Shown here: positions 27,549-55,512 of the stretch, in pieces
Layout: every line of letters begins with the position of its first letter
How positions within the stretch are numbered: position 1 is the stretch's first letter
Assembly: GCA_902826815.1 (NCBI GenBank)
Contig: CADEGF010000022.1
Span: forward strand, 6,614-70,613
DNA from: an uncultured Mycobacteriaceae bacterium
Lineage (GTDB): Bacteria > Actinomycetota > Actinomycetes > Mycobacteriales > Mycobacteriaceae
Length of the DNA: 64,000 nt
Direction: 5' to 3'
Program-made: the position numbers and the translations under genes
Notes under the pieces: model-generated
Seen by the model: only the letters and a program-made list of their open reading frames with translations
The model's database searches: none
Told to the model about the DNA's origin: nothing

Positions 27549-27567
27549 TACGGATACCCATACAGTA
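27549..27567. promoter_or_regulatory. Island operator site 1 (8-3-8 palindrome)
   Basis: TACGGATA CCC ATACAGTA matches 12 of 16 arm positions of TACTGTAA-N3-TTACAGTA. It lies between the divergent genes starting at 27524 and 27613. TACAGT in the right arm can act as a plus-strand -10. It is one of the weaker sites; the left arm is degenerate. Confidence 0.45.
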
Positions 27568-27612
27568 GGCTAAACCATTACTATCCTATACAAGATAGAA
27601 AGGAAAGCCCGG

Positions 27613-28263
27613 ATGGCGGACGGTGACACCCCCCGGTTCGGCGAGCAACCGCTGGCCCAGACCGTTGTCGCCGCGAGCGCGCTCCGGCATCTCGCGGGTC
27701 AGCTGTTGTCCCTGGAGCATCCGCACCCCGCCGTGGATGCCATGCTCGAGCAGCTCGGTGAATGGCAGAAGGAACTGGCAGGCGCCGTCGCGCCCGATGC
27801 CACCCCGCGGGTCGGCGCCGACGGCGCAGACACCCAGCGGGTGTACCTCTCCCACGCATTCGACATCGGCGCATTCAACCCGTGCTTTCCCACCTACGAG
27901 TTCGATCACATCGACGCGGATAGGGCGGAGGGCACGGTCACGTTCCCCGTCGTCTACGAAGGCCCGCCTGGACTTGTGCACGGCGGCTTCCTCGCCGTCT
28001 TCTTCGACTGCGTGATCCAGCATCAGAACTGCGCGACCGAGCTTTCGGGGAAGACGCGCTCGCTGAACGTGAAGTTCCGCAGGCCTACGCCCATCCTCAC
28101 CGAACTGCGCTTCGACATCGTGCGGGAACAAGCCGACCGCGGTGTCACGTCGACCGCGCGGCTGTCGCTGGACGACGAGGTGCTGTGCATCGGCGAGGCC
28201 ACCACGCTCGCCCTGTCTCCGGACAAGCTGACCGGCTTTAACTTCGGCAAGCGGCGGGCCTGA
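27613..28263 (+). CDS. Hotdog-fold (PaaI-like) acyl-CoA thioesterase
   Basis: A 216-residue protein with a C-terminal hotdog domain. HGGFLAVFFD is the active-site helix and LNVKFRRPTPI the following strand, both typical of PaaI-type thioesterases. The first 90 residues are a helical extension. It hydrolyses acyl-CoA to free acid and CoA and may rescue CoA from dead-end intermediates. ATG 27613 follows AAAGGAAAG. It is first gene of a plus-strand unit with the GntR regulator and a crotonase, and diverges from the operon starting at 27524. Confidence 0.85.
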   Translation: MADGDTPRFGEQPLAQTVVAASALRHLAGQLLSLEHPHPAVDAMLEQLGEWQKELAGAVAPDATPRVGADGADTQRVYLSHAFDIGAFNPCFPTYEFDHIDADRAEGTVTFPVVYEGPPGLVHGGFLAVFFDCVIQHQNCATELSGKTRSLNVKFRRPTPILTELRFDIVREQADRGVTSTARLSLDDEVLCIGEATTLALSPDKLTGFNFGKRRA

Positions 28264-28267
28264 GCTC

Positions 28268-29017
28268 ATGGAGTTGAACGGAATTCGCCAGCCGCGCGTG
28301 GCAGAGATCGTTGCGGCGCGACTGCGCGACGAGATCCTGTCCGGCCGGCTGAAGGAGCTTCCCTCGCAGGAGAGCCTGTTCCAGCAGTTCGCCGTGAGTC
28401 CGCCTGCGATGCGCGAGGCGATCCACATCCTGGAGACCGACGGTCTGATCTCGGTGCGGCGCGGCAACGTCGGGGGAGCGGTGGTTCACCTGCCGTCGGC
28501 GGCGCGCACCGCGCACATGATCAGCATGGTGCTGCAGACCCGCGACTCCACCCCGGCAGATGTCAGTGAGGCGCTGCTGCACCTCGAACCGATCTGCGCG
28601 GGGATGTGCGCATCGCGCGAAGACCGGATGACCGAGGTCGTTCCGTACCTGCAGGCCGAAATCGACCGTCAGACAGAACAGTTCGACGATGTGTCGGCAT
28701 ATGTGCCCAACGCGCGGCGCTTTCACGAAGCGCTGGTGTCCCGGTGCGGCAACGAACCGATGATCCTGTTGATCGGCTCGCTGGAGTTGATCTGGTCGGC
28801 GCATGAGTCGTCGGTGTGGAGCGACGACGATGTGAACCCCAAGACGATGCGCGCCGCGCTTCGTGACCACCAGAGGTTGTTGGACGCGATCGGCGACGGC
28901 AACGCGTCGCGCGCGGTGAAGTTGGCCCAGGACCATCTCGCCGCGGCGCGGCGCAACACGTTGGCGGCGGGTGCGGACAAAACCATTGAGGCGAAACTGA
29001 TTTCGAGGAGCCAGTGA
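28268..29017 (+). CDS. GntR-family (FadR-like) transcriptional regulator
   Basis: A 249-residue regulator with an N-terminal winged helix (SQESLFQQFAVSPPAMREAIHILETDGLISVRRG) and an FCD-type helical ligand domain (RRFHEALVSRCGNEPM; DHQRLLDAI). It begins four bases after the thioesterase stop and overlaps the crotonase start, so it is embedded in the operon. FadR-type proteins usually respond to acyl-CoA or carboxylic acids and repress catabolic genes. Its operator is not obvious; the 8-3-8 palindromes are a possible alternative target to the TetR protein. Confidence 0.87.
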   Translation: MELNGIRQPRVAEIVAARLRDEILSGRLKELPSQESLFQQFAVSPPAMREAIHILETDGLISVRRGNVGGAVVHLPSAARTAHMISMVLQTRDSTPADVSEALLHLEPICAGMCASREDRMTEVVPYLQAEIDRQTEQFDDVSAYVPNARRFHEALVSRCGNEPMILLIGSLELIWSAHESSVWSDDDVNPKTMRAALRDHQRLLDAIGDGNASRAVKLAQDHLAAARRNTLAAGADKTIEAKLISRSQ

Positions 29018-29892
29018 CGATGACTGCGTCAACCGACGACCGCGTGCTGTTCGAGGTCGACCCCGACAAGCGGATCGCGACGATCACCTTCAACAACCCC
29101 AGGCAGCGCAACTCCTACGACGCGGCCATGCGCGAGGCCGTCGCCAGGTGCCTGGATCACGTCGCAGAGAATGACGACATCACCGTGGTACTGCTACGCG
29201 GGGCGGACGGGGTATTCAGCACAGGCGCGGATATGAACAACGCATACGGCTGGTATGGGAAGGACGAGCCTGGCAAGAAGAGCAGGCCGAGCCAGCGGCG
29301 CCGATTGACGGTGGACCGCAAGTCATTCGGCTTCTACCACAATCTGATGGGGTTCCCGAAGGTCACCGTCGGCGAGATCAGTGGATACGCGCTCGGCGGC
29401 GGATTCGAGATGGCATTGATGACCGATATCTCCGTCATCGCCCGTGACACGAAGATCGGCATGCCTGCCACCCGTTTCCTCGGGCCCGCGCTTGGCAGCC
29501 TGCACATGTTCTTCCACCGCCTCGGCCCTGTGCTGTCCCGGCGGCTGCTGCTGACCGGCGACATCATCGAAGCCGGTGCGGTCGAACACCTCGGCGTCTT
29601 CACCGACACGTGCGACCCGGACAAGGTCGCCGCAAGGGCGAGGTACTGGGCGGAGAAGGCGGCGAAGATGCCTGCCGACGGCGTCGTCATCGCCAAGGAG
29701 GCGTTCCGTCTCGTCGAGCAGAGCCAGGCCTATCAGGGTGAGGAAGTGGCGAGCTATCTGTTCCACGCCTACGGGACGAACCTGCAGTTCGCCGAAGGTG
29801 AGTTCAACTTCGTCAAGACGCGGGCGGCGCACGGGGCCAAGGAGGCGTTCCGCCTGCGTGACGAGCATTTCCACGTGCCCGAGCCGCAGTGA
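29014..29892 (+). CDS. Enoyl-CoA hydratase/isomerase family protein
   Basis: A 292-residue crotonase. The first catalytic Glu is present (Glu132, GGGFEMALMTD) but the second is replaced by Ala (near 152, GMPATRFLGP). The insertion GWYGKDEPGKKSRPSQRRR near residues 79-97 is unusual. GTG 29014 overlaps the GntR stop (GTGA); ATG 29020 has better spacing to the GAGGAG site and may be the true start. A single catalytic Glu suggests isomerase or another reaction rather than hydration. It is followed by an operator and a thiolase. Confidence 0.88.
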   Translation: MTMTASTDDRVLFEVDPDKRIATITFNNPRQRNSYDAAMREAVARCLDHVAENDDITVVLLRGADGVFSTGADMNNAYGWYGKDEPGKKSRPSQRRRLTVDRKSFGFYHNLMGFPKVTVGEISGYALGGGFEMALMTDISVIARDTKIGMPATRFLGPALGSLHMFFHRLGPVLSRRLLLTGDIIEAGAVEHLGVFTDTCDPDKVAARARYWAEKAAKMPADGVVIAKEAFRLVEQSQAYQGEEVASYLFHAYGTNLQFAEGEFNFVKTRAAHGAKEAFRLRDEHFHVPEPQ

Positions 29893-29903: not shown

Positions 29904-29922
29904 TACTGAACGCTATACATTA
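29904..29922. promoter_or_regulatory. Island operator site 2 (8-3-8 palindrome)
   Basis: TACTGAAC GCT ATACATTA matches 12 of 16 arm positions of the island consensus. It lies in the 80-base gap before the thiolase start at 29973. The gap between genes on the same strand implies a separate promoter here. Confidence 0.45.
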
Positions 29923-29972: not shown

Positions 29973-31148
29973 ATGGGCACACCTGTCATCGTCGGCGCCA
30001 CCAGGACGGCCATCGGCCGCTCCTTCAAGGGCACGCTGGTCAACACACCGCCGGAAACCTTGATCACCACGGTGCTTCCCGAGGTCGTCCGCCGGTCCGG
30101 TGTCGACCCGGCCGCGTTCGACGACATCATCATCGCCGAATCGCATTACGGCGGCGGCGACCTCGCCCGCTATGCCGCAACCGCAACCGGAATGGACGGC
30201 GTTCCCGGTCAGTCGGTGAACCGGCACTGCGCGGGCAGCCTGACCGCCATCGGCAATGCGGCCGCCCAGATCGGCTCAGGTATGGAGCGCGCGTTGGTCG
30301 CAGGCGGCGTGCAGTCGCTGTCGATGACCCCGCTGACGAACTGGCGCATCCCCGGTCCCGAGCTGAAGTTCGAGGAGCGGTGGATGCCGCCGACGCACGT
30401 CGAGACGCCGGATGCGCCGTGCAAGGACATGTCGATCACGGTCGGCTGGAACACTGCGCAGTCGGTCGGCATCACCCGCGAGGAGATGGATGCGTGGGCG
30501 GCGCGGTCGCATCAGCGCGCGATCGCCGCGATCGACGCAGGCAAGTTCGGAGACGAGATCATCCCGCTGAAGGTGCAGCAGTTCGACGGATCCGTCATCG
30601 ACTTCAGCGTCGACGAGTTCCCGCGTCGCGACACCACCGTCGAGAAGCTGGCCGGGCTGAAGGTTCTGCATCCCGAGATCGAGGGCTTCTCCATCACCGC
30701 GGGCAACAGCAGCGGCACCAACGACGCCGCGGCCGCGGTGGCACTGGTCGACAGTGACTACGCCGACGCCGAGAAGCTGACCAAGATGGCGACCGTGAAG
30801 GCTTGGGCCTCAGCCGGTGTCGCTCCGCGCGACTGCGGGCTCGGTGCTGTCAAGGTGATCGGCAAGGTGCTCGACCGCGCGGGCTTGAAGCCGTCGGACG
30901 TCGCGCTGTGGGAGATCAACGAAGCTTTCGCCTCGGTGCCGATTGCGGCGTGTCGCGAACACGGCATCGACGAGGAGCTTGTCAATTTCTCCGGAAGCGG
31001 TTGCAGCCTCGGCCATCCCATCGCCGCATCGGGTGCGCGCATGGTGACGACGCTGGTTTACGAGTTGCAGCGGCGCGGCGGCGGTATCGGGGTTGCCGCG
31101 ATGTGCGCAGGCGGCGGCCAGGGCGGCGCCGTCGTCATCGAGGTCTAG
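29973..31148 (+). CDS. Acetyl-CoA acetyltransferase (thiolase)
   Basis: A 391-residue thiolase with nucleophile Cys86 (NRHCAGSLTAI), NEAFASVPIAA, GHPIAASGARM and the C-terminal CAGGGQGGA. The NRHC context differs from the RRCGSG of the 16391 thiolase, so it is not a recent duplicate. It would cleave 3-ketoacyl-CoA in the island pathway. ATG 29973 has a weak GAGG site. It converges on the TetR gene with a three-base gap, leaving no room for a terminator. Confidence 0.93.
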   Translation: MGTPVIVGATRTAIGRSFKGTLVNTPPETLITTVLPEVVRRSGVDPAAFDDIIIAESHYGGGDLARYAATATGMDGVPGQSVNRHCAGSLTAIGNAAAQIGSGMERALVAGGVQSLSMTPLTNWRIPGPELKFEERWMPPTHVETPDAPCKDMSITVGWNTAQSVGITREEMDAWAARSHQRAIAAIDAGKFGDEIIPLKVQQFDGSVIDFSVDEFPRRDTTVEKLAGLKVLHPEIEGFSITAGNSSGTNDAAAAVALVDSDYADAEKLTKMATVKAWASAGVAPRDCGLGAVKVIGKVLDRAGLKPSDVALWEINEAFASVPIAACREHGIDEELVNFSGSGCSLGHPIAASGARMVTTLVYELQRRGGGIGVAAMCAGGGQGGAVVIEV

Positions 31149-31151
31149 CGA

Positions 31152-31871
31152 TTACTTCTTGCGCGCCGGCTTTTTCGTCGCGGCGATCAATCGCTCGGCG
31201 TGCTCGAGAATGCACTCGAGGCCGTAGTCGAAGTTGAAATCGTCTGCCGCGCCGATGCGGTGGCCCTTGGCGGTCGCCTGCGCGAGCAGCGGTGCGGTTG
31301 CCGCGTCGACGACCATCGTCTCCTCGAAGTCGCCCGCCCCGTCGCTCGCCCTGTTCTTGTCGTAGAGCCGTTGCAGCACAACGGATCCGCGCACATGAAC
31401 CGACACCGCAGAGTAGGTGTCGAACGCGTCCTCGGGTGAGAGCCCCGCCTCGGCAAGGCTCTCGATGGCCTTCTCGACTGCGGCCACCCCGAGCTTCGCG
31501 GCGCGTGGGCTCAAAGCCGACCGGATCAGGATCAGGTCGCACAGAATCGGGTTGGAGAGAAAGGTCTTTCGCATCGTGCGCGCGTGGTTGGCCAGCGTCT
31601 CGCGCCAGTCCTTGGCCTCCACGTACGGGGTGGCGAAGACGTACTGCTTGAGCGCGCGGTCGGTCATCGCGTTGAGCAGGTCGTCCTTCTTGCGGAAGTA
31701 CCAGTAGATGCTCGTCACGCCGACGCCGAGGTGCTTGCCAAGAAGCGGCATGCTGAGGTTGTCGATGCCGACGTCCTCGGCGAGCTCGAATGCGCCCTTG
31801 ATGATGTCGTCTGGATTGATGGACCCGCGTTCGCGCCGCGGACGCTTTTCCGCGGTTGCCTGCTTGGCCAC
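31152..31871 (-). CDS. TetR-family regulator, candidate controller of the island
   Basis: A 239-residue TetR protein. The helix-turn-helix is LSMPLLGKHLGVGVTSIYWYFRKKDDLL (about 39-66), followed by a helical ligand domain and a Lys/Arg-rich tail (ATKKPARKK). GTG 31871 has a GGAGG site eight bases upstream; a TTG further upstream was rejected. Its promoter carries a near-perfect copy of the palindrome found at six other island promoters, which suggests autoregulation and control of the regulon. The ligand is probably an acyl-CoA or substrate intermediate (inference). It is the only TetR gene inside the island. Confidence 0.9.
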   Translation of the reverse strand: MAKQATAEKRPRRERGSINPDDIIKGAFELAEDVGIDNLSMPLLGKHLGVGVTSIYWYFRKKDDLLNAMTDRALKQYVFATPYVEAKDWRETLANHARTMRKTFLSNPILCDLILIRSALSPRAAKLGVAAVEKAIESLAEAGLSPEDAFDTYSAVSVHVRGSVVLQRLYDKNRASDGAGDFEETMVVDAATAPLLAQATAKGHRIGAADDFNFDYGLECILEHAERLIAATKKPARKK

Positions 31872-31900: not shown

Positions 31901-31919
31901 TACTGTAAGACCTATAGTA
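31901..31919. promoter_or_regulatory. Island operator site 3, at the TetR promoter
   Basis: TACTGTAA GAC CTATAGTA matches 14 of 16 arm positions. It lies between the TetR gene (minus, start 31871) and the crotonase gene (plus, start 31961). On the minus strand TACAGT and on the plus strand TATAGT fit -10 boxes, so binding would block both directions. Confidence 0.7.
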
Positions 31920-31960: not shown

Positions 31961-32722
31961 GTGTCAGAAGAAGTTCTACGGGAGCGCCGCGGACGCGTAC
32001 TCGTCATCACCATCAATCGGCCGGACGCGCGTAACGCGGTCAACCTCGCGGTCAGCCAGGGTCTGGCCGATGCGGTCGATGAACTCGACGACAGCGCCGA
32101 TCTCTCGGTGGCGGTGATCACCGGCGCGGGCGGAAACTTCTGTTCGGGTATGGACCTCAAGGCGTTCGCCGCCGGTGAGGTCGTCGCTATTCCCGGCCGC
32201 GGTATCGGCTTCACCGAGCGGCCGCCGAGAAAGCCGGTCATCTCCGCCGTCGAGGGCTATGCGCTGGCCGGCGGCACCGAGGTGGTGCTGGCCACCGACC
32301 TGGTGGTGGCGTCGCGGACCGCGAAGTTCGGCATCCCGGAAGCCAAGCGCGGTCTGGTCGCCGCCGGCGGCGGGCTACTGCGGCTGCCGCGGCGGATCCC
32401 GTACCAGAAGGCGCTCGAATTGGCTTTGACCGGAGAGAGTTTCACCGCCGAGCAGGGTGAGCAGTGGGGTTTCGTCAACACGGTCACCGAACCCGGCGAG
32501 GCGCTGGCGGGCGCGATCGAGCTCGCCGAGCGCATCACCGCCAACGGGCCGCTGGCCGTCGCGACCACCAAGGAGATCATCACGAAGTCCGCGGATTGGT
32601 CGGAAGACGAGATGTGGCGCAAGCAGCTCGAATACATCTTGCCGATCTTCACCTCCAACGACGCAAAGGAAGGCGCGATCGCTTTCGCCGAGAAGCGCGC
32701 GCCGAACTGGACCGGCACCTGA
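31961..32722 (+). CDS. Enoyl-CoA hydratase
   Basis: A 253-residue crotonase with both catalytic glutamates in place: Glu107 (AGGTEVVLATD) and Glu127 (GIPEAKRG). It is the only island crotonase with the complete hydratase pair, so it most likely adds water to a 2-enoyl-CoA. It resembles mycobacterial EchA19-type enzymes. GTG 31961 follows AAGGG. It opens a 13-gene plus-strand run to 45561 whose genes mostly overlap or are separated by a few bases. Confidence 0.92.
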   Translation: MSEEVLRERRGRVLVITINRPDARNAVNLAVSQGLADAVDELDDSADLSVAVITGAGGNFCSGMDLKAFAAGEVVAIPGRGIGFTERPPRKPVISAVEGYALAGGTEVVLATDLVVASRTAKFGIPEAKRGLVAAGGGLLRLPRRIPYQKALELALTGESFTAEQGEQWGFVNTVTEPGEALAGAIELAERITANGPLAVATTKEIITKSADWSEDEMWRKQLEYILPIFTSNDAKEGAIAFAEKRAPNWTGT

Positions 32723-32732
32723 GGACGGCGCC

Positions 32733-33530
32733 GTGGACCTCGGCCTGGAGAATGCCACCGCGGTAGTCGTCGGCGGCGGTCGCGGCATGGGACTGGCCGC
32801 CGCACGCTGCCTCGCCGACGACGGTGCGCGCATCGCGATCGTCGGGAGGACCCGGTCGGTTCTCGACGAGGCCGCCGATGAACTGTCGAGCCGTGGCAGC
32901 CCCGATGCGGTGGGTCTGGTGGCCGACGTCACCGATACCGAAGCGGCTCAACAGGTTTTCGACGATGTGAGCGGTCGGTGGGGCGGCGAACTCAACATCC
33001 TCGTCAACGTCGCAGGGCCGAGCGCGGTTGGGACCTTCACCGACCTCACCGACGAGCAGTGGCGCCAAGCGGTCGACGAAGGCGTGATGGGCATGGTGCA
33101 CTGCGTCCGGTCTGCACTGCCCATGCTGCGCAAGGCGGAATGGGCGCGGATCGTGAACTTCTCCGCGCACTCGACGCAACGGCAGAGCGTCATCCTGCCG
33201 GCCTATACGGCGGCCAAGGCGATGGTCACCAGCATCTCCAAGAACCTGTCGCTGTCCCTGGCGCCGGACGAGATCATGGTGAACGTCGTGTCGCCGGGCA
33301 GCATTCTGTCCGAATCACTGGCCGGCTGGGCTGATTCCGTCGGTATCGACGGAAGCGATCCGTATGCAGTGATGGCCGGAATCGACAAGCACTTCGGGCA
33401 CCCGGCGCATCTGCCGCGCGCAGGCACACCCGACGAGATCGGTCCCGTCGTCGCCTTCCTCGTCTCGCGCGCCAACTCCTATATGACCGGCGCCAACATC
33501 AATGTCGACGGCGGCAGCGACTTCACCTGA
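32733..33530 (+). CDS. SDR-family oxidoreductase
   Basis: A 265-residue short-chain dehydrogenase with the NAD(P) motif GGGRGMG (14-20), NVAG in place of NNAG, and the triad Ser144, Tyr158, Lys162. It probably oxidises a 3-hydroxyacyl-CoA or a ring alcohol. GTG 32733 follows GAGGA with seven bases spacing. Longer readings overlap the crotonase and were rejected. It lies between hydratase and aldolase genes, which fits a hydration-oxidation-cleavage sequence (inference). Confidence 0.9.
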   Translation: MDLGLENATAVVVGGGRGMGLAAARCLADDGARIAIVGRTRSVLDEAADELSSRGSPDAVGLVADVTDTEAAQQVFDDVSGRWGGELNILVNVAGPSAVGTFTDLTDEQWRQAVDEGVMGMVHCVRSALPMLRKAEWARIVNFSAHSTQRQSVILPAYTAAKAMVTSISKNLSLSLAPDEIMVNVVSPGSILSESLAGWADSVGIDGSDPYAVMAGIDKHFGHPAHLPRAGTPDEIGPVVAFLVSRANSYMTGANINVDGGSDFT

Positions 33531-33542
33531 TACGGAGGCGAC

Positions 33543-34550
33543 ATGGCAACGGCCCGCGAAGCCAGGGACTGGGCGCGCACGACATTGCGTGGAATCGGCA
33601 ACAGCCTCTACACGCCGTTCAGTGGTACCGACGGCGACGACATCGACTGGGACGCCTACCGGGCCCTGGTTCGCTACTGCGTAGGGGAGCTCAACCACCC
33701 CATGCTCTGGTGCACCAGCGGCATCGCGGAATTCTGGTCGCTGACGATCGCCGAACGAAAGCAGTTGCTGGAGGTCGCAATCGAAGAAGGCCGGCGGGCC
33801 AATCCCGATGTCCTCGTCCAGGCATGTACGGCGGCCACGGCCGCGAAGGACTGCCTCGAGCTGACCCGGCACGCGCAAGAGGCGGGCGCCGACATCGTCT
33901 ACATCCAGACGCCGATGATGGAGGCTCACGGTGGGGAAGGGGTGCTGAACTTCTTCCGCTACATCGCCGACCGCACCGATATCGCGCTCGGCATGTTCAA
34001 CTCGCCGTCGTCGGGCTATGTGCTGACGCCTGCGGAGGGTGCCCGCATCTACTCGGAGATCCCGGCCGTCTGCGCGACGAAGGAGGGCGCCTTCCGGCCC
34101 GCGAGCAGTCGGATTCTGCACGAGCTTGCGCCCGATCTGACGATCTGGGAGTGCGACCTGACGGTGTACCGCGCGGGCTGGTTGCGGGCGGGGATCGTCG
34201 GTCCGGCGCAACTCGGGACGGCGGGCTACCTGTACGAGACGCCGCAGCAGCCGGTCATCTCCGAGTACTGGGAGCTTGTCTGGGGCGACAAGCTGGTCGA
34301 GGCGATGGACCACGCCGAGAAGTCCGGGCTCGATCAGTTCGGTATCGACATGGCGTCGTGGTTCACCTGCTACCCCGGTCGGCCGGACTACTTCACGCAC
34401 TGGGGTGGGGCGTTCAAATACGCGGCGTCGGTGCTCGGTCTGCCGATCGGCGACTACCCGCACTCTCGGCCGCCGCAGGCGGTGTTCCCCGCCGAGGGCA
34501 AGTCGCAGATCGATGCAGCGTATCGACGGTACGGACTGGTCTTGAGCTGA
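33543..34550 (+). CDS. DapA/NAL-superfamily aldolase or hydratase-aldolase
   Basis: A 335-residue class I (Schiff-base) aldolase of the dihydrodipicolinate synthase/N-acetylneuraminate lyase superfamily. Lys180 in CATKEGAF is the expected Schiff-base residue. The family's YNxP Tyr is Phe152 here (MFNSPSSG). Relatives include hydratase-aldolases that cleave pyruvate-bearing ring-fission products. True DapA is unlikely in this setting. ATG 33543 has a GGAGG site. A 50-base gap with operator site 4 follows. Confidence 0.85.
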   Translation: MATAREARDWARTTLRGIGNSLYTPFSGTDGDDIDWDAYRALVRYCVGELNHPMLWCTSGIAEFWSLTIAERKQLLEVAIEEGRRANPDVLVQACTAATAAKDCLELTRHAQEAGADIVYIQTPMMEAHGGEGVLNFFRYIADRTDIALGMFNSPSSGYVLTPAEGARIYSEIPAVCATKEGAFRPASSRILHELAPDLTIWECDLTVYRAGWLRAGIVGPAQLGTAGYLYETPQQPVISEYWELVWGDKLVEAMDHAEKSGLDQFGIDMASWFTCYPGRPDYFTHWGGAFKYAASVLGLPIGDYPHSRPPQAVFPAEGKSQIDAAYRRYGLVLS

Positions 34551-34575: not shown

Positions 34576-34594
34576 TACCGAAAGGTGTACAGTA
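34576..34594. promoter_or_regulatory. Island operator site 4, internal promoter
   Basis: TACCGAAA GGT GTACAGTA matches 13 of 16 arm positions. TACAGT (34588-34593) ends seven bases before the GTG start at 34601, the spacing of a leaderless promoter. It would give an internal promoter inside the 13-gene run. Confidence 0.55.
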
Positions 34595-34600: not shown

Positions 34601-35416
34601 GTGAGTGCTGACGACCCGGTCCTCTACGAGCTACGCGACACCGGTGTCGCAGTGCTGACCCTCAACCGGCCAGAGCGGATGAACGGGTGGGGCGGCGGGC
34701 TTGCGGCCAGGTTCTACTCGCTGCTCGACGAGGCCGATGCCGACCCGGACGTGCGCGCGATCGTCGTCACCGGCGCGGGCCGGGCGTTCTGCGCGGGCGC
34801 CGATATGGGCGACCTGTCGTCGATCGAGAAGGCCAACACCGACGGCGACGCCGATATATCCAAGTTGGTCGGCGAACGGTATCCGCATTTCGTTGCGACG
34901 CTGCGCAAGCCGGTCATCGCCGCGATCAACGGCGCGTGCGCAGGCATCGGGCTGACCCAGGCGCTGATGTGCGACATCCGGTTCGCTGCAGCGGGGGCGA
35001 AGTTCACCACATCCTTCGCGCGCCGCGGCCTCATCGCGGAATACGGCATCAGCTGGATCCTCCCGCGCGTCGTCGGCTTGGGCGTGGCGATGGACCTGTT
35101 GTTGTCGGGCCGCGTCTTTCTCGCCGAAGAGGCGAAGGCACTCGGACTCGTCAACGACGTCGTCGCACCGGACGAGCTGTTACCCCGTGCGATCGGCTAC
35201 GCCGAGGACATCGCCGCCAACTGCGCGCCGAGTTCTCTGGCGGTGATCAAACAACAGGTGTACGCAGACACCATGCGCGACGTGCTCGAGGCCAGCGACC
35301 ATGCCGAGAAGCTGATGGGTGAATCCATGCAACGCCCCGACTTCATCGAGGGCATCACCGCATTCTTCGAGAAGCGCACACCGAACTTCCCGCCGCTCAA
35401 GGAGGTATCGCTATGA
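34601..35416 (+). CDS. Crotonase-family protein, likely isomerase
   Basis: A 271-residue crotonase (VAVLTLNRPERMNGWGG; GAGRAFCAGADMGD). The first catalytic Glu position appears to be Thr (GLTQALMCD), while RRGLIAEYGISW provides a Glu at the site used by enoyl-CoA isomerases. Double-bond shift is therefore the better guess. GTG 34601 has a -10-like box seven bases upstream and may be leaderless. It overlaps the amidohydrolase start by four bases. Confidence 0.88.
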   Translation: MSADDPVLYELRDTGVAVLTLNRPERMNGWGGGLAARFYSLLDEADADPDVRAIVVTGAGRAFCAGADMGDLSSIEKANTDGDADISKLVGERYPHFVATLRKPVIAAINGACAGIGLTQALMCDIRFAAAGAKFTTSFARRGLIAEYGISWILPRVVGLGVAMDLLLSGRVFLAEEAKALGLVNDVVAPDELLPRAIGYAEDIAANCAPSSLAVIKQQVYADTMRDVLEASDHAEKLMGESMQRPDFIEGITAFFEKRTPNFPPLKEVSL

Positions 35417-36621: not shown

Positions 36622-36649
36622 TCATGTCGCGGACGCGAGGAGCATAAGG

Positions 36650-38269: not shown

Positions 38270-39096
38270 CACACACGGCCATTGACTGCCTCCTCAACGT
38301 GCACTTCGGCGAGACCGAACAGCAGCCGAACTGGATGCTCAAGGTGCGCGACGACTACTTCAAGGGACCCGAGTCGATGTTCGCCCCGGTCGACCTGGCC
38401 GAGCTGCTCGACGAGATGGACGAGCAGGGGGTGGCCAAGGCCATCCTGATGGACAACCTCGCCAAACCGTCGGTCACGGCGCGCAAGTTCGTCGAGTCGA
38501 GGCCCGATCGGTTCACGTTGGCGATGGGCGGCGTCAACCTACTCAAGCCGGTGCCGTCACTGCGCGAGCTCTGCGCGGTCGTCAACGATCTGCCCGTGGC
38601 GTATACCGTTGTTGGGCCCAGCTTCTGGGGTGACGGGCAGTATCCGCCGAGCGATGCGGTCTACTACCCGCTGTACACGAAGTGCGCGGAGATGGAACTG
38701 CCGCTGTGCATCAACACCGGGCTACCAGGGCCGCCGATTCCCGGTGAAGCCCAGAACCCGATCCACCTCGACCGCGTGTGCGTGCGCTTCCCCGAACTGA
38801 AGCTGTGCATGATCCACGGCGCCGACCCGTGGTGGGACGTCGCGATCCGGCTGATGATCAAGTACCAGAACCTGCGGCTGATGACGTCGGCGTGGTCGCC
38901 GAAGCGGCTGCCGGAAAGCCTGCTGCACTTCATGCGCACCCGCGGCAAGAACAAGATCATCTATGCCTCCGACTGGCCGGTGCTGCGGATGCGCCGAGTG
39001 GTGCCGGAAGCGCTCGCGCTCGACCTGCCCGCAGATGTGCTCGACAACTACCTGTACAACAACGCCGCTGAATTCTTTTTCGGAGAACAGGACTGA
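38266..39096 (+). CDS. Amidohydrolase (Amidohydro_2 family), small
   Basis: A 276-residue amidohydrolase-2 protein with PLCINTGLPG, CMIHGADPWW and YASDWPVLRM, the strands that normally carry metal ligands. The N-terminal HxH is weak (AIDCLLNVHFG). It is shorter than the 35413 protein and only distantly similar, so the two probably act on different intermediates or form a complex. ATG 38266 is coupled to the ligase stop, and the first acyl-CoA dehydrogenase of the pair starts three bases after its end. Confidence 0.85.
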   Translation: MTHTAIDCLLNVHFGETEQQPNWMLKVRDDYFKGPESMFAPVDLAELLDEMDEQGVAKAILMDNLAKPSVTARKFVESRPDRFTLAMGGVNLLKPVPSLRELCAVVNDLPVAYTVVGPSFWGDGQYPPSDAVYYPLYTKCAEMELPLCINTGLPGPPIPGEAQNPIHLDRVCVRFPELKLCMIHGADPWWDVAIRLMIKYQNLRLMTSAWSPKRLPESLLHFMRTRGKNKIIYASDWPVLRMRRVVPEALALDLPADVLDNYLYNNAAEFFFGEQD

Positions 39097-46727: not shown

Positions 46728-46746
46728 AACTGTAACTCTTACAGTA
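46728..46746. promoter_or_regulatory. Island operator site 5 (8-3-8 palindrome)
   Basis: AACTGTAA CTC TTACAGTA matches 15 of 16 arm positions. It fills the 46-base gap between the thiolase-like gene (start 46711, minus) and the molybdopterin oxidoreductase (start 46758, plus). TATCGT at 46745-46750 ends seven bases before GTG 46758, suggesting a leaderless transcript under the operator. Confidence 0.75.
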
Positions 46747-49007: not shown

Positions 49008-50234
49008 TTACGCGATGGCGCCGGAGTCCTTGAGTTCCTCGATGCGATCCCATTCCATTCCGAGTTCCATCAGCACGATCTCGGTGTGCTCGGACGCCTG
49101 CGGCGCGCGCGTCGTTTCCAACGGCTCGTGGTTGAACTGAACCGGGCCGCGGACCACCTTGAACGGTTCGCCGCCGTCGGCCGCGTCCACCTCGACGATC
49201 ATGTCGTTGGCGATGGCCTGCTGGTCGGTGGCGAGGTCGAGGAAGCTCTGGAACGGCGCCCACTGGCCCTTCATCGTCTTGAGGTGCTCGCGCCAGTAGT
49301 CGAAGGGCAAGCTGGCGATCGACTCGGCGATGAGTTCGGCTGCCGCGGCGGCATTCTCGATGAGCGGCATCACGTCGGAGAACCGCGGATCGTCGGCGAG
49401 CTCGGGCAGACCGAGGTGGGTGAACGCATCGCGGATGTAGCCGGTGGGGCTGACGATGCACAGGTTGATCGTGCCGCCGTCGGACGTCAGATAATTGCCG
49501 AGGAACGGATTCACCGTCGGGCCAACGGAATCCGGCATCAGTGAGCGCATCGTCTCACCGACCTCCATGCCCTGGGTCATGCTGGCTCCGGCAGACCACC
49601 ACGCCGTGCTGAGCAGGGATACATCGAGCTCGACGGCCTCGCCGGTACGTTCGCGGTGAAACAATGCCGCCGATATTCCACCGGCGATGTTCATCCCGCC
49701 GATGGAGTCGCCAAACGCCGGAATGCCCTGCGACAGGGCACCGTTGATCTCCTCCGGCGTCAACGCATGGCCGACGCCGCTGCGGGTCCAGAACGCGGTG
49801 CCGTCGAACCCGCCGATGTCACGCTCGGGCCCCTTGTCCCCGTATGCGCTGCCACGGGCATAGATGATGTTCGGGTTGGCCGCGCGGATGTGCTCGACGT
49901 CGAACTTGTTCTTCTGGCGCTGCGCGGGCATGTAATTGGTGAGAAAGACGTCGGCGGTCTTGGCGATCTCGTAGAGGACTTCCTGCCCGCCGGGTGTCGA
50001 CACGTCGATGCCGACGCTGCGCTTGCCGCGGTTGGGATGCTCCATCAGCGGGTGGCGGTCGGCCTGCAGTTGGATACCACCCATGTAGAGGAAGCCGCGC
50101 TGAGTGTCACCGCGGACCGGGTGCTCCACCTTGATGACGTCGGCGCCCCAGTCGGCGAGGATCGCTCCGGCCGCGGGGACGAACGTGAACTGCGCGACCT
50201 CGAGGACGCGGACGCCCTCCATCACCTTGATCAT
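49008..50234 (-). CDS. Family III CoA-transferase (CaiB/BaiF)
   Basis: A 408-residue CaiB/BaiF-type CoA-transferase (GVRVLEVAQFTFVPAAGAILADWGADVIKVEHP). The catalytic Asp is Asp176 in FGDSIGG. It exchanges CoA between an acyl-CoA and a free acid without ATP, or acts as a racemase in some members. ATG 50234 overlaps the P450 stop (ATGA), so the two form an operon under the operator at 51476. A second, different CaiB-type gene is at 61001-62209. Confidence 0.9.
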   Translation of the reverse strand: MIKVMEGVRVLEVAQFTFVPAAGAILADWGADVIKVEHPVRGDTQRGFLYMGGIQLQADRHPLMEHPNRGKRSVGIDVSTPGGQEVLYEIAKTADVFLTNYMPAQRQKNKFDVEHIRAANPNIIYARGSAYGDKGPERDIGGFDGTAFWTRSGVGHALTPEEINGALSQGIPAFGDSIGGMNIAGGISAALFHRERTGEAVELDVSLLSTAWWSAGASMTQGMEVGETMRSLMPDSVGPTVNPFLGNYLTSDGGTINLCIVSPTGYIRDAFTHLGLPELADDPRFSDVMPLIENAAAAAELIAESIASLPFDYWREHLKTMKGQWAPFQSFLDLATDQQAIANDMIVEVDAADGGEPFKVVRGPVQFNHEPLETTRAPQASEHTEIVLMELGMEWDRIEELKDSGAIA

Positions 50235-51454
50235 GGGTTAAACGTAACCGGAAGCGCCGTCGGCGATCGGAAGGGCTGCCCGTAGATGTAGGTGTCTTCC
50301 TCGGTGACCATCTTGATGTCGGTCAATCGGTCGAGCAGGCATTCCAGCGCGACGCGCGTCTCCATCCTGGCCAGGTGCAATCCGAGGCAGGTGTGTTCGC
50401 CCGCGGCAAAAGAGATGTGCGGCACGCGTTTCCGGCGGATGTCGAACTCCTCCGAGCGCTCCCACCGGTTTTCGTCCCGGTTCGCCGAGCCGATGCAGAC
50501 GTCGATCACCGCCCCCTGGGGCAGCGTCACCCCTTCGAGTTCGGTCTCCTCGGCGGCGTAGCGCTGCACCGTCGTCAGCGGCGTCTCGAAGCGCAGCCCT
50601 TCCTCGATCGCCGGGCCGATCAGCTCGCGGTCGGCCTGGACCGCACGGAACTGGTCGGGGTGGGTGAGCAACAGGAACAGCAGATTGCCCGACGACCGGT
50701 ACGTGGTCTCGAGCCCCGCGGGCAGCAGCAGCCGCAGGAAGGAGTAGATCGCCTCGTCGTCGAGTTTGTCGCCGTCGATCTCCGCGGACACCAGATCGCC
50801 GATGATGTCCTCGGTCGGCTTCGACCTGCGCTTCTCGATCTGCTCGCTGAAGTAGTCCTTCAGTGCGGCCGACGCCTCGAAAGCCCGCTTGTACCTGACG
50901 TGATAGCTGATCAGGTCGACCGCGTGCCTGCGAAAGAACGGCAGGTCTTCCTCGGGCAGTCCGAGCAGCTTGGAGATCACCCTGGTGGGGAACTCCAGGG
51001 TGAAGTCCTTGACCAGATCGGCGTTGCCCGCTTCGACGAACTCATCGATAAGCGCATTGACCACCGGCCTGACGATCTCGGGCTCCCACCGCTGCAGCGA
51101 CCGCGTCTTGAACGCCGCGGACACGAGATTGCGGTGCTCCCAATGCTTCTTACCCTCCATCGCCAGGATGGTCGGTCCCATGAACAGGCCGACGGTGGAG
51201 TCGTAGATGTGCGAGTTGAACGCCTTGCTGTCACGGAACACCCGGTTCACCGCGTCGAAGGACACCGCGGCATAGAGGTTCTCGGGTCGAAAGTCTTCGG
51301 AAGCCTTCGTCCAGTCCATGACGCTGCCGAGGAAGACGCCGCTTGTCTCGTGTCGCCGTCGCTCGAAGATGGGGTAGGGGTTGCGAAGGAGGTCGGCCGC
51401 TTCGTCGGCCGTGACGTCGAGCACCGGCGTATCCACGTGAGGAATCTCCACCAT
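50231..51454 (-). CDS. Cytochrome P450 monooxygenase
   Basis: A 407-residue soluble bacterial P450. It has the I-helix AGLETT (246-251), ExxR at 285-288 and the heme loop FAAGEHTCLG with the ligand Cys356. It would hydroxylate a hydrophobic substrate using ferredoxin-borne electrons; no ferredoxin gene is adjacent. ATG 51454 follows GGAAG, and the strongest island operator lies 21 bases upstream. With the Rieske and Baeyer-Villiger-type genes nearby, it makes an oxygenase set typical of steroid or terpenoid breakdown (inference). Confidence 0.93.
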   Translation of the reverse strand: MVEIPHVDTPVLDVTADEAADLLRNPYPIFERRRHETSGVFLGSVMDWTKASEDFRPENLYAAVSFDAVNRVFRDSKAFNSHIYDSTVGLFMGPTILAMEGKKHWEHRNLVSAAFKTRSLQRWEPEIVRPVVNALIDEFVEAGNADLVKDFTLEFPTRVISKLLGLPEEDLPFFRRHAVDLISYHVRYKRAFEASAALKDYFSEQIEKRRSKPTEDIIGDLVSAEIDGDKLDDEAIYSFLRLLLPAGLETTYRSSGNLLFLLLTHPDQFRAVQADRELIGPAIEEGLRFETPLTTVQRYAAEETELEGVTLPQGAVIDVCIGSANRDENRWERSEEFDIRRKRVPHISFAAGEHTCLGLHLARMETRVALECLLDRLTDIKMVTEEDTYIYGQPFRSPTALPVTFNP

Positions 51455-51475: not shown

Positions 51476-51494
51476 TACTGTAAAGATTACAGTA
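51476..51494. promoter_or_regulatory. Island operator site 6, perfect palindrome
   Basis: TACTGTAA AGA TTACAGTA is a perfect 8-3-8 palindrome, matching all 16 arm positions of the island consensus. It lies 21 bases upstream of the P450 start. On the minus strand the TACAGT of the palindrome fits a -10 box. Confidence 0.8.
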
Positions 51495-51544: not shown

Positions 51545-53200
51545 TCAGGCGCCCTCACTGAGCGCCTGCTCGCGGGCCCACCGGTAGTCGGCCTTACCCG
51601 CCGGGCTGCGTTCGATGACGGGCCGGAACACCACCGCTTTCGGCAGCTTGTAGCGCGCGATGACGCCAGCCGCGTGCTCGATGAGTTCCTGCGCGTCGGC
51701 CGTCGCGCCGTCGACGAGGGAGACGACCGCGACGACCTCCTGACCCCACCGCTCGCTGGGTCGACCGGACACCACCACGTCGCGAACCGCGGGGTGCGAC
51801 AGCACCGCGCTCTCGACTTCCTCGGCGAAGATCTTCTCGCCGCCGGAGTTGATGGTCACCGAGTCGCGGCCGAGCAGTTCGATGCCGCCCTCGGCCAGGT
51901 GCCGCGCGCGGTCACCAGGGATCGAGTACCGCACGCCGTCGATGACGGGGAAGGTTTTGGCGGTCTTGGCCGCATCGCCCTTGTAGCCGAGCGGCACGTA
52001 GCCACGCTGCGCGAGCCAGCCCATCCCGTCGTGGCCGGGCTCGAGGATCGAGTCAAGGTGCTCGCCCGCGACGCTGGTGTCGGGCCCGGCGTTGAACTTT
52101 CCGGTCGACACCGCACCCGGCGTCGACATGTGACTCATCTGGATGCCGGTCTCCGACGATCCGATACCGTCCATGACGATCAGGCCAGGCTTGATGTCGA
52201 TGAGGCGCTGCTTGGCGGTCGGCGTCAAAAGGGCGCCGCCGTTGGCGACGACCGCGAGCGACGACACGTCTGCGGTACCCCGTTCGATGGCATCGGCGAT
52301 GGGCCTGGCCATCGCGTCGCCGACGACCTGAACGGTGAGAATTTTCTCCCGCTCGACCGTCGCCACCACCTCGTCGGCGTCGAATTTGCCATGTGTATCA
52401 GGGAATACCACCGTCTGGCCGGTCGTGAGTGCGGTCATGACGGCCCACTGCGCCGCACCGTGCATGAGCGGCGGAAGCGTGAAGATCTTGGTGCCGGGAT
52501 TCTCCGCGACGCGCTTCGCGATCTCGTCATACGAGCCTGCGGTCTCGCCGGTGTACATGTTCCTGCCGCCGAACGACGTCATGAAGATGTCGTGCTGACG
52601 CCACAGCACGCCCTTCGGCATCCCGGTCGTTCCCCCTGTGTAGAGCACGTACAGGTCGTCGGGCGACGGTTGAACCGGTGGCGGCTCCGACGCGCCAGAG
52701 GACACGATCGACTCGTAGTCGACGGCGCCGTGCACCAGGTCGTTGCCGGAATCGTCGGCGATCTGGATCAGCACCCGCAGGTGCGGCAGGTGGGGGAGCA
52801 CTTCGCCGACGCGGGGAGCGAAGCTGGCGTGATAGAGCAGCGCGGTCGCACCGGAGTCCGCGAGCAGGTACTCCAGCTCGTTCTTCACATACCGGTAGTT
52901 GACATTGAACGGAGCGACCCGCGCCCGCCACGCGCCGAGCATCCCCTCGACGTACTCAGGCCCGTTGTAGGCGTAGAGGCCGAGCAGGTCCTGGCCCACC
53001 TCGTGACCGGCCAGCTCCGAGCGTTCGGTGTGGCAGCCCAGCCCTCGTGCGTGTAGGTAGGCCGCGAGCCGGTTCGAGCGCTCGACGACCTGCGCGTAGG
53101 TGTAGCGGCGGTCGCCCTGGATGATGAACTCGCGGTCGCCGATGGAGGAGGCGACGGCCTCGGCGGTGGCGGGGACGGTGAATTGCGTTGTGGCGCTCAT
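51545..53200 (-). CDS. AMP-forming acyl-CoA synthetase (FadD17/FadD19-like)
   Basis: A 551-residue acyl-CoA ligase with LYTGGTTGMPKGVLWRQ and the C-terminal lysine in PAGKADYRW. Its nearest relative here is the ligase at 36650. FadD19-type enzymes activate steroid C-24-type side-chain acids. ATG 53200 was chosen (GAGAG upstream); an in-frame TTG lies at 53212. It is last gene of the minus-strand operon Rieske-isochorismatase-thioesterase-FadD. Confidence 0.9.
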   Translation of the reverse strand: MSATTQFTVPATAEAVASSIGDREFIIQGDRRYTYAQVVERSNRLAAYLHARGLGCHTERSELAGHEVGQDLLGLYAYNGPEYVEGMLGAWRARVAPFNVNYRYVKNELEYLLADSGATALLYHASFAPRVGEVLPHLPHLRVLIQIADDSGNDLVHGAVDYESIVSSGASEPPPVQPSPDDLYVLYTGGTTGMPKGVLWRQHDIFMTSFGGRNMYTGETAGSYDEIAKRVAENPGTKIFTLPPLMHGAAQWAVMTALTTGQTVVFPDTHGKFDADEVVATVEREKILTVQVVGDAMARPIADAIERGTADVSSLAVVANGGALLTPTAKQRLIDIKPGLIVMDGIGSSETGIQMSHMSTPGAVSTGKFNAGPDTSVAGEHLDSILEPGHDGMGWLAQRGYVPLGYKGDAAKTAKTFPVIDGVRYSIPGDRARHLAEGGIELLGRDSVTINSGGEKIFAEEVESAVLSHPAVRDVVVSGRPSERWGQEVVAVVSLVDGATADAQELIEHAAGVIARYKLPKAVVFRPVIERSPAGKADYRWAREQALSEGA

Positions 53201-53219
53201 CGAATCTCTCAAGAGCCTT

Positions 53220-53834
53220 TCAGGGCTGGTGCGGCAGCAGCTTGATCATCAGGCCGGTTGCTTCGGATAGTACGGTGCCGTCGGCATCGGTCATCGTCGC
53301 GGTGATGAACGCCTTGCGCCCCTCGAGCCGGTCGATCCGACCGCGCGCGACCAGGGGTTCGTCGATCGGGGTGACCTTCTTGTAGTCGACATGAAGGTAC
53401 GCCGTGCGGCTGATCGGCCGGTCCGCTGCGGACACGATCATCCCAAAGTGCCAGTCAAAGAACAGCGGTATCACCCCGCCGTGCACGGCGTTGTTGCCTC
53501 CGACGTGGAAGCGGCTGAAGTGGCCTTCCATCGTGACGCCGTCGGGTCCGTACTCGGCGAGGGTCCACGGCGGAACCAGCGGATGGCCGAGGCCGGGCAG
53601 ATGCGGGGCGCGGCCCGCGGGTGCGACGCCCTGCGGCGCCCTGTGCACCTCGAGCTGTTCGCAGAGCTCCTCGATGCGCCGGGCGCCGTCGGTCCACAGT
53701 TCGCCGTCGGGTGCGGTGGACACCACGATGTCCTGCAGCCTGCGCATCGCCGACATGAATCGGCCCATCTCCGGCGGTGCGTCGATGGGTTCGATCGGCG
53801 GAAAGCCGCGGGTCTCGTGGCTGGTTTCGGTCAC
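53220..53834 (-). CDS. Hotdog-fold (PaaI-like) thioesterase
   Basis: A 204-residue protein with a C-terminal hotdog domain: VHGGVIPLFFDWHFG is the active-site helix, followed by YLHVDYKKVTPI. It resembles the 27613 thioesterase in layout, with an N-terminal extension. It probably hydrolyses a pathway acyl-CoA. GTG 53834 overlaps the stop of the isochorismatase-like gene (GTGA); a much longer reading upstream lies in another gene and was rejected. Confidence 0.87.
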   Translation of the reverse strand: MTETSHETRGFPPIEPIDAPPEMGRFMSAMRRLQDIVVSTAPDGELWTDGARRIEELCEQLEVHRAPQGVAPAGRAPHLPGLGHPLVPPWTLAEYGPDGVTMEGHFSRFHVGGNNAVHGGVIPLFFDWHFGMIVSAADRPISRTAYLHVDYKKVTPIDEPLVARGRIDRLEGRKAFITATMTDADGTVLSEATGLMIKLLPHQP

Positions 53835-54445
53835 GTCCACGCCGCAATCAGATCCGACGTGGTAGTCACCGTCGCCAGCAGCGAGATGGTGTGGTCGATG
53901 ATCGCGTCGGCGTAGTCGGCGGGGATACCGGCGACGGCATCGCGCGGGACGACGACGCGGTAGCCCTTGTTCACCGCGTCCATCACGAGGTTGGTGATCG
54001 CGATGTTCACCGATACGCCGACGGCGACGATCGTCGTCACTCCCAGGTTTCGAAGAACGGAGTCGAGGTCGGTGCCGCCCATCGGCCCCACGCCGTGCCA
54101 TCGGTGCAGCTCGACATCGTCTGGCGCAGGGCCGAATTCGGGCATCAGCGTGGCCCCTTCGCTGCCGGGACTGATGTCGACCTGTTTGGTTCCCATCGCG
54201 AAGATCGGCGCGTTGTGGTTGGCGCCGAGACCGTCGGGCCTTCGCTGCACGAGGCAGTGCACGATCTGCACGCCGGCTTCCCGGGCAACGGGGAGCAGTC
54301 GTCCGATGTTGGGCAGCGCCTCGCGTTGCGCCGCCTTGGCGAGAGCGCCGAGGCCGGCGTTGGGGCCGACGACGGCGCCCTGGAGTTCTTGCGTGACGAG
54401 AGCGGTGTGCGCAGGCGCCGCGATGTCGGCGAGGTCGATGGTCAT
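53831..54445 (-). CDS. Isochorismatase-fold hydrolase lacking the catalytic cysteine
   Basis: A 204-residue isochorismatase-like fold (ALVTQELQGAVVG; GVTTIVAVGVSVNIAITNLVMDA). In cysteine hydrolases of this fold the nucleophile Cys occurs in the last motif; here it is Ala149. The first-motif Asp appears as Glu20. Either it is a true isochorismatase-like lyase/hydrolase that needs no Cys, or it has another role. ATG 54445 overlaps the Rieske stop (ATGA). Confidence 0.83.
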   Translation of the reverse strand: MTIDLADIAAPAHTALVTQELQGAVVGPNAGLGALAKAAQREALPNIGRLLPVAREAGVQIVHCLVQRRPDGLGANHNAPIFAMGTKQVDISPGSEGATLMPEFGPAPDDVELHRWHGVGPMGGTDLDSVLRNLGVTTIVAVGVSVNIAITNLVMDAVNKGYRVVVPRDAVAGIPADYADAIIDHTISLLATVTTTSDLIAAWT

Positions 54446-55464
54446 ACCGATGCGGGCACCTCGCCGGGTGGGGTGGCGGGAACTTCATAGAACTGCGTGG
54501 CCCATTTACGCATGGCCATATAGGGTTTCGCGTCCACCTTCGACAGCGCGGGGTTTTCGACGTACTCCTGGTAGCGCCAGATGTTGAGATCGTCCCAGAC
54601 GGTTCCCATGAATTGGCGCTCGACCTTCTCGCGCACCGCGTCGGGCGGTACGTCGGAGGTGTCGCCGGGCAACCGCGGCCACCAGATCGAATAGAACATG
54701 TCGGAGTACCCCTCCTCGACGGGGGTGCAGGCGAAGATCAGCCGGTGGTTCGACGAACCCTCGAACGCGCTGATCGCAAAGCCAAGCCCGGAGAAGTGGC
54801 TGTGGATGTAGAGCGCCATCTTGTCCGGGTCGTCGCCGCGGGCGTCGGGCCACCCGGTGAGGAAACGCCACTCTTCGTCCACGGCCTCCCAATTGAGGCA
54901 CACGGGAGTGACGGTCGCGCCGTGCACGTAGTGGAAGTGCGCGCTGTCTGGGCCGTTCTCCGCGACGATCTGCGGATGTACGGGCTCACGCTCGGCGCGG
55001 CTCGAAAACTCCGGATACGGACGGTAATACGCGTCAGGGTCGGTCGGGAACTGCGGGAACTTGTGAAAGAGGTCCGGCATCTCCCACTGCGGATCCTCGC
55101 CGTCGGGTTGATGCCAGACGAACACGCAGCCGTACTGTTCGCGCACCGGGTAGACCCGCAGTCGCAGCGCTTTGTTGGGGCGGTCGGGCTGGTAGGGGAT
55201 GTAGCGGTTGGTGCCGTCGGGTCCCCAGCGCCAGCCGTGGAACGGGCATTCGACGCAGTCGCCGACCACCTTGCCGCCGTGGCCGATGTGCGCACCGAGG
55301 TGGCGGCAGTGTCCCGACATCACGTGAAGTTCGCCTGCCTCGTCGCGATAGGCGACCAGGTCCTCACCGAAGTACCGCAGCGGCTTCACCTCACCCGTGG
55401 CGATCTCGGCCGACCAGCCGACCATGAACCAGCCGGTGACCTTCCAGGTGAAGGGGACTTTCAC
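54442..55464 (-). CDS. Rieske non-heme iron oxygenase, KshA-like
   Basis: A 340-residue oxygenase alpha subunit. The Rieske cluster is Cys53, His55, Cys73 and His76 (CRH...CPFH). The mononuclear iron site follows Asn170-x2-Asp173-x2-His176-x4-His181, with an Asp late in the chain (WDDLNIW) as possible third ligand. It is most like 3-ketosteroid 9-alpha-hydroxylase KshA and related single-component-type hydroxylases. A reductase is not encoded nearby. It starts at ATG 55464, 29 bases before operator site 7, as first gene of a four-gene operon. Confidence 0.9.
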   Translation of the reverse strand: MKVPFTWKVTGWFMVGWSAEIATGEVKPLRYFGEDLVAYRDEAGELHVMSGHCRHLGAHIGHGGKVVGDCVECPFHGWRWGPDGTNRYIPYQPDRPNKALRLRVYPVREQYGCVFVWHQPDGEDPQWEMPDLFHKFPQFPTDPDAYYRPYPEFSSRAEREPVHPQIVAENGPDSAHFHYVHGATVTPVCLNWEAVDEEWRFLTGWPDARGDDPDKMALYIHSHFSGLGFAISAFEGSSNHRLIFACTPVEEGYSDMFYSIWWPRLPGDTSDVPPDAVREKVERQFMGTVWDDLNIWRYQEYVENPALSKVDAKPYMAMRKWATQFYEVPATPPGEVPASV

Positions 55465-55493
55465 GCGGGCCTCCTTCGGCGCCGAAGCTATCC

Positions 55494-55512
55494 AACGGAA
55501 GATATTACAGTA
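55494..55512. promoter_or_regulatory. Island operator site 7 (8-3-8 palindrome, one good arm)
   Basis: AACGGAAG ATA TTACAGTA matches 12 of 16 arm positions; the right arm is perfect, the left degenerate. It lies between the divergent Rieske (55464, minus) and monooxygenase (55560, plus) genes. TACAGT and TATAGT (55511-55516) fit plus-strand -10 boxes. Confidence 0.5.

Follow-up and report, generated by a model that had tools for sequence, protein, structure and literature searches.

KstR2 of mycobacteria and Rhodococcus, as described in PMC3068626, is a TetR-type regulator with palindromes in divergent gaps of a cholesterol-type catabolic cluster, among them the one at its own promoter, and with a small local regulon marked by three copies of a 14-bp operator (AnCAAGnnCTTGnT). 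The same source gives a 14-bp palindromic motif for KstR, a TetR repressor whose large lipid-catabolic regulon comprises 83 genes in M. smegmatis (PMC3068626), and KstR3 of Mycolicibacterium neoaurum is described as another mycobacterial TetR tied to isoprenoid (sterol) catabolism, encoded in a four-gene operon with an aldolase gene (atf1-chsH4-chsE6-kstR3; PMC10398937). Here, we analyzed 64,000 nucleotides of DNA from an uncultured Mycobacteriaceae bacterium (C22:6614-70613 of a 6.87-Mb genome, contig CADEGF010000022.1; henceforth "the window") that contain a catabolic island of 38,756 bp (positions 19552-58307) with seven copies of a 19-bp palindrome made of two 8-bp arms and a 3-bp spacer. 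We consider it likely, with a probability of roughly 0.88, that the TetR-family protein of gene 31152-31871 uses these palindromes as its operators.

This arrangement resembles that of KstR2 in its TetR-type regulator and in palindromes that occupy divergent gaps, including the one next to the regulator gene, but differs from it in the 8-3-8 architecture, the number of sites (eight, counting one beyond the window), and the set of genes. An earlier note on this DNA had already set the motif apart from the operators of KstR and KstR2, and the sites indeed match neither 14-bp motif in type as quoted in PMC3068626. Compared by gene order, the island differs from the four-gene kstR3 operon in that its tetR diverges from an enoyl-CoA hydratase gene (PMC10398937). 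Motifs published for 30 mycobacterial TetRs, organized by M. tuberculosis gene numbers, are predictions of the same type from intergenic palindromes and may include one for this TetR (PMC4482099). Local TetR regulons such as that of KstR2 are already known, and the operator and regulon reported here appear to be undescribed: no description of this operator was found among the titles and abstract openings listed from the open-licence PMC literature, which is no proof of absence.

The nearest solved structures to the protein encoded at 31152-31871 are tetracycline repressors, and their operator tetO has the same 8-3-8 geometry as the island palindromes. Unlike for a tetracycline repressor, however, scanning of the neighbouring genes revealed catabolic enzymes and no efflux pump, and the protein stays far below the NCBIfam cut-off for the tetracycline resistance repressor model NF010319 (87.9 bits, cut-off 265). 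None of its 40 solved-structure rows (E <= 1e-4) named KstR. It combines an N-terminal helix-turn-helix domain (PF00440, 2.9e-13) with a TetR_C_1 ligand/dimer domain (PF02909, 6.1e-12), and its best orthologues among named genomes belong to Mycolicibacterium and Mycobacterium, the first being M. stellerae at 94%. Pfam analysis of 40 chosen reading frames within 18.8-63.7 kb found only this one TetR, as the earlier note had it, and by position a palindrome (site 31901) lies in its own promoter. The other regulators among these frames are GntR/FCD proteins (28268-29017 and 18803-19471) and an IclR protein (58273-59061). Elsewhere in the source genome, three other TetR matches (E <= 1e-8) reach 27-29% identity, and no second close TetR is present.

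Palindromic sites in the window and the genome

All seven palindromes listed in the earlier note are found at their positions with 12 to 16 of 16 arm matches (Table 1), and they are confined to the few gaps of the island: 7 of 7 fall into the 742 bp (1.9%) of island DNA outside drawn genes. Apart from them, no place in the 64 kb scores above 11 of 16, and 20 Markov-shuffled windows hold zero places at 12 of 16 or better. A scan of the window with up to 3 mismatches returned 4 sites versus 0 in 100 shuffles. The overlap with a -10-like TANNNT that the note had pointed out is present, but the half-site TACAGT/TACTGT fits TANNNT by its own sequence, and the overlap therefore adds no independent evidence.

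The genome scan for which the note had called, carried out with mismatches and with a degenerate pattern, gave matches that cluster on contig C22. Five palindromic places carry up to 3 mismatches, all of them on C22, where four fall inside the window and the fifth is at C22:75201, and the degenerate pattern with up to 1 mismatch returned 12 places, comprising the eight sites plus one each on C1, C23, C26, and C72. Good matches are concentrated in C22:34162-75219, with the four one-mismatch matches on other contigs lying isolated. The eighth site, 4.6 kb past the end of the window, sits between the genes of a carboxyltransferase and a luciferase-like oxidoreductase, the latter followed by a P450 gene. 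The nearest solved structure to this P450 is P450terp, and we take its family name to be CYP108. When this site is counted, 13 candidate start codons, 11 of them for units in the window and 2 for units beyond, have an operator edge at a distance of 6-55 nt (Table 1). These starts are predicted from sequence, with three shifted by 1-6 bp after the count of gaps, and labels such as ECH27 or CYP51 are position-based, not gene names.

Inverted repeats this close to start codons might instead act as RNA hairpins or attenuators, and arm positions 1-3 do pair in 72-78 of 80 distinct sites. Positions 4-8, however, pair in only 37, 52, 46, 43, and 9 of these 80, and at four of the seven window sites a hairpin would have to serve both genes of a divergent pair. 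We rejected this extremely improbable explanation because of the poor pairing at positions 4-8 and the sharing of sites by divergent genes.

Some operators are accompanied by a third, weaker half-site 12 bp further on, creating overlapping palindromes (27549-27579, 55494-55524, and L023:9878-9908). Among 65 non-redundant sites read in both directions, the mean match at this offset is 2.02 of 6 versus mostly 1.2-1.6 at non-touching offsets, and 2 of 130 readings reach 5; this signal is weak and we do not claim it.

Conservation of the sites and co-occurrence with the TetR clade

Beyond the sites and their placement, computation establishes their conservation at orthologous loci and their co-occurrence with the TetR clade. 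We derived a scoring matrix from the eight sites of the source genome and applied it to the best 80 of 289 confirmed stretches encoding tetR relatives, all 80 of which were examined. In the comparison of orthologues that the note had suggested, 77 of these 80 loci have a site with a score of at least 15 no more than 350 bp upstream of their tetR match. Every locus has at least one match, and all 222 matches fall outside and 0 inside the 1,215,837 bp of mapped genes (gene ends trimmed by 30 bp). By comparison, 60 column-permuted matrices of the same composition gave means of 0.97 matches outside (maximum 9) and 0.78 inside genes (maximum 11) over the same loci, and 0.12 (maximum 1) instead of 7 in the window. 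The sites stand out as AT-rich against the 66% GC of the window, and whole-genome match numbers are no higher than those of a reversed-letter control, which would be in line with chance AT-rich matches in promoter DNA; the permuted matrices refute this idea, to which we give practically no weight.

Sites are present in 67 of 67 orthologous gaps upstream of ECH35, in 76 of 78 gaps between TetR and ECH32 or SDR33, and, at a score of at least 15, in 50 of 63 ECH27/HOT27 or ECH27/GntR28 gaps (the place of site 27549). No site was present in any of seven kinds of control gap, of which one is convergent and six are internal to units (0/57, 0/43, 0/4, 0/67, 0/62, 0/70, and 0/62). Equivalents of site 46728 were found at loci L091, L097, L099, and L143, equivalents of site 51476 at L088, L090, L092, L136, and L143, and counterparts of site 55494 beside the KshA-like gene at L088, L090, L098, and L143. 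Seven loci whose gene content around tetR is unlike that of the window (L011, L017, L027, L038, L058, L060, and L077) all retain the site, and in six of them ECH32 still adjoins tetR.

Among 118 genomes of the same genus, the TetR is present in 91 (E <= 1e-40) and a strict form of the motif in 78. The motif occurs in 78 of the 91 TetR-positive versus 0 of the 27 TetR-negative genomes (Fisher p = 4e-17, uncorrected for relatedness), and the reversed-letter control has 26 matches in those 27. Among the strict matches listed, at least 109 places in at least 35 genomes, 92 are at most 60 kb away from tetR, 5 are on its contig at a greater distance, and 12 are on other contigs. Of the last 17, we examined 11 outliers together with a site at a distance of 55 kb from tetR, and all 12 adjoin a homologue of an island protein. 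A molybdopterin oxidoreductase homologue (69%) on the same contig but 4.1 Mb from tetR retains the site (L097), and so does the group of KshA-like oxygenase and Baeyer-Villiger monooxygenase (78-90%) 86 kb from tetR on the same contig (L098). In three genomes, a near-identical site away from tetR (L094:5841, L102:5526, and L103:5438) precedes an enoyl-CoA-hydratase-like gene (29%), which might be an additional member of the regulon.

Among 249 genomes of the order, five outside the genus have a TetR match. Two of them, representing two other genera, have good sites nearby: G137 encodes two TetRs (69 and 62%) amid sites at several promoters, and G194 has a TetR of 44% with a site about 120 bp upstream and no other island homologue in the 14 kb that were read.

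Two features of related genomes bear on which protein would bind the sites. A GntR/FCD regulator to which the earlier note had given no consideration is encoded inside the island (28268-29017, GntR28), its gene adjoining site 27549, and regulators of this family and domain make-up are known to control catabolic genes, so that the operators might belong to it. However, close GntR28 orthologues (76% or more) are present in just 36 of the 118 genomes, with the next matches at 48% or less, and absent from 42 of the 78 motif-positive genomes, some of which are fragmented assemblies. In 17 of the 80 loci GntR28 was not found where its neighbours are present, and 16 of these 17 keep the tetR-upstream site (judged by eye). 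The motif also lacks the GT-N3-AC core of GntR/FCD operators. Given its absence from many motif-bearing genomes and loci, we rejected GntR28 as the general operator binder and regard this assignment as very unlikely.

The second feature is a paralogous TetR of 50-58% identity that lies no more than 25 kb away from the first, on one contig with it, in 14 of the 91 TetR-positive genomes. It stands beside a P450 gene in the three islands that were read (G095, G020, and G281; about 50-59% identity), and its recognition-helix stretch is the same as that of the first TetR. Two paralogues might therefore share the operators in relatives, so that the motif would not be specific to orthologues of the 31152 protein; we see this as a possibility of lesser likelihood that is compatible with operators of that protein. 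The source genome speaks against it with next-best TetR matches of only 27-29% and with P450 and CoA-transferase genes that overlap at 50231-50234, leaving no paralogue by the P450. In G281, the TetR orthologue is in two overlapping pieces (L142:6538-7226), as if frameshifted, while operators and the second TetR are present.

Several observations weigh against the assignment of the sites to the TetR at 31152-31871. Genome-wide, the reversed-letter control exceeds the motif, with 7 + 7 versus 5 + 5 places on the two strands at up to 3 mismatches and 37 + 28 versus 6 + 10 for the degenerate pattern, and the motif count is below this control in five of six genomes checked and likewise in the sixth, G281 (11 versus 24); clustering and placement, not number, are therefore what stands out. 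The counts over the 80 loci are not independent because the matrix stems from the eight sites of the source genome and the orthologues are related. In three of these loci no site lies inside 350 bp: at L014 it is 365 bp away, L053 has only a weak one (score 11.0), and L021 has none. The place of site 29904, one of the three 12-of-16 sites that the earlier note had called weaker evidence, is poorly conserved: no more than 6 of 60 orthologous gaps reach a score of 15 there. Thirteen of the 91 TetR-positive genomes are without a strict match, 3 of which have only a homologue of 48-49%, and the 27 TetR-negative genomes may lack the whole island, so that the co-occurrence ties the motif to the island and not to the TetR alone. 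Nine of the 12 outlier neighbours (P450s, hydratases, and a DAP_DH-like protein) show homology at family level only (28-38%), which makes them weak evidence. The assembly that holds a third close case, an SCP2 thiolase (91%), is fragmented, and this gene, which stands on a separate contig, may be no more than the remainder of the island. Outside the genus, G280 (40%) has only a weak site, downstream of tetR before a thiolase gene (3.7 kb read), and G339 and G343 (38-39%) have no site near tetR despite sharing the recognition helix. This stretch, VGVTSIYWYFR, is identical in 14 of 14 aligned TetRs including two of 38% without the motif, and the recognition helix therefore does not discriminate.

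Genes of the island and the proposed regulon

Table 1. Proposed operators, inferred transcription units, and further features. Coordinates are window positions unless a contig or locus is named; the distance is that from the operator edge to the predicted start.
Feature	Coordinates	Strand	Arm matches	Operator	Distance (nt)	Content or context
Operator	27549-27567		12/16			divergent ECH27 (-) and HOT27 (+)
Operator	29904-29922		12/16			upstream of thiolase; least conserved site
Operator	31901-31919		14/16			between tetR (start 31871) and ECH32 (start 31961)
Operator	34576-34594		13/16			ahead of ECH35 GTG; heads inferred ten-gene unit
Operator	46728-46746		15/16			divergent SCP2-type thiolase (start 46711, -) and molybdopterin oxidoreductase (start 46767, +)
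Operator	51476-51494		16/16 (perfect)			upstream of P450 50231-51454 (-)
Operator	55494-55512		12/16			divergent KshA-like Rieske oxygenase (-) and Baeyer-Villiger monooxygenase (+)
Eighth operator	C22:75201-75219 (L086:4588-4606; window position 68588)					past window end
Inferred unit	19552-27524	-		27549	24 (ECH27)	three enoyl-CoA hydratases, three CoA ligases, alcohol dehydrogenase; genes overlap or nearly touch
Inferred unit	27613-29892	+		27549	45 (HOT27)	HOT27, GntR/FCD regulator (28268-29017), enoyl-CoA hydratase
Thiolase (Pfam)	29973-31148	+		29904	50 (THI30)	
TetR-family regulator	31152-31871	-		31901	29 (TetR)	TetR_N and TetR_C_1; proposed operator owner
Inferred unit	31961-34550	+		31901	41 (ECH32)	enoyl-CoA hydratase, SDR, DHDPS-like protein
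Inferred unit	34601-45561	+		34576	6 (ECH35)	ECH35 (34601-35416), two amidohydrolases, CoA ligase, two ACADs, HpnA/SdmB-like SDR, two DAP_DH_C proteins, Peripla_BP_6
SCP2-type (lipid-transfer-like) thiolase	45566-46711	-		46728	16 (LTP46)	
Molybdopterin oxidoreductase	46767-48917	+		46728	20 (MOP48)	formate-dehydrogenase-alpha-like
Inferred unit	49008-51454	-		51476	21 (CYP51)	P450 and type III CoA-transferase
Inferred unit	51545-55464	-		55494	29 (KshA)	KshA-like Rieske oxygenase, 4HBT-domain protein, CoA ligase
Inferred unit	55560-58307	+		55494	47 (BVMO)	Baeyer-Villiger monooxygenase and protein without Pfam match; start read by eye
Carboxyltransferase gene		-		eighth	55	beyond window
Luciferase-like oxidoreductase gene		+		eighth	12	beyond window, followed by P450
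Second TetR paralogue	L088:15754-16410					in relative
Second TetR paralogue	L090:16027-16653					in relative
Second TetR paralogue	L143:6840-7478					in relative, between P450 and CoA-transferase

From the sites and gene order we infer a regulon of 34 genes in 11 units (19.5-58.3 kb) plus about three genes in two units beyond the window, encoding the carboxyltransferase, the luciferase-like oxidoreductase, and the P450terp-like P450. The earlier note had bounded the regulon at 19.5-58.3 kb; the island is covered as proposed, but the eighth site suggests that the regulon reaches to about 68.6 kb. Between the seventh and eighth operators lies a block of genes for the IclR regulator, a 2-hydroxyacid dehydrogenase, an HMGL-like protein, a CoA-transferase, and a GntP permease (58273-63701), which has no good operator of its own.

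The enzyme set matched no known pathway. The Baeyer-Villiger monooxygenase is nearest to phenylacetone and steroid monooxygenases, the HpnA/SdmB-like dehydrogenase scores below the cut-off for both HpnA and SdmB, and HOT27 has no Pfam match and looks hot-dog-like by eye only. ECH35 starts at a GTG so close to its operator that its transcript is possibly leaderless; the open frame at 34687-35322 over the same DNA is a wrong frame (no Pfam match for 34687-35319), the likely gene being the enoyl-CoA hydratase itself.

A model of regulation and its meaning

Repression of the island by its TetR, as put forward in the earlier note, gains comparative support from the orthologous loci, the co-occurrence within the genus, and the two other genera, with binding, repression, and autoregulation as the part that we infer. 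A TetR dimer would bind TACTGTAA-N3-TTACAGTA-type sites at the 13 transcription units and, once bound, would occlude the promoters of the island as well as its own until a ligand derived from the substrate releases it and the whole island is switched on. KstR2 offers a tested parallel for a TetR mechanism of this kind (PMC3068626). The location of the GntR gene inside a presumably controlled unit makes a second regulatory layer possible.

The KshA-like oxygenase, Baeyer-Villiger monooxygenase, HpnA/SdmB-like dehydrogenase, P450s, SCP2-type thiolase, CoA ligases, and beta-oxidation enzymes together suggest a cyclic isoprenoid as the substrate of the island, and the ligand, at a guess, is perhaps an acyl-CoA or acid intermediate of it. 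More speculatively, and with doubt prevailing, the island might represent a third large isoprenoid-catabolism regulon that parallels those of KstR and KstR2, with an operator of its own and a substrate of the cyclic terpenoid or sterol-like kind; two TetR paralogues sharing a recognition helix might then, in some species, use the same operators so that one island answers two different ligands.

No knowledge of the substrate is needed for the operator to delimit the regulon within a widespread mycobacterial island, and the operator also points to further regulon members elsewhere in relatives. The island's unassigned oxygenases, P450s, and CoA ligases could be tested together as members of a single pathway, and the ligand of the TetR would indicate what the island degrades.

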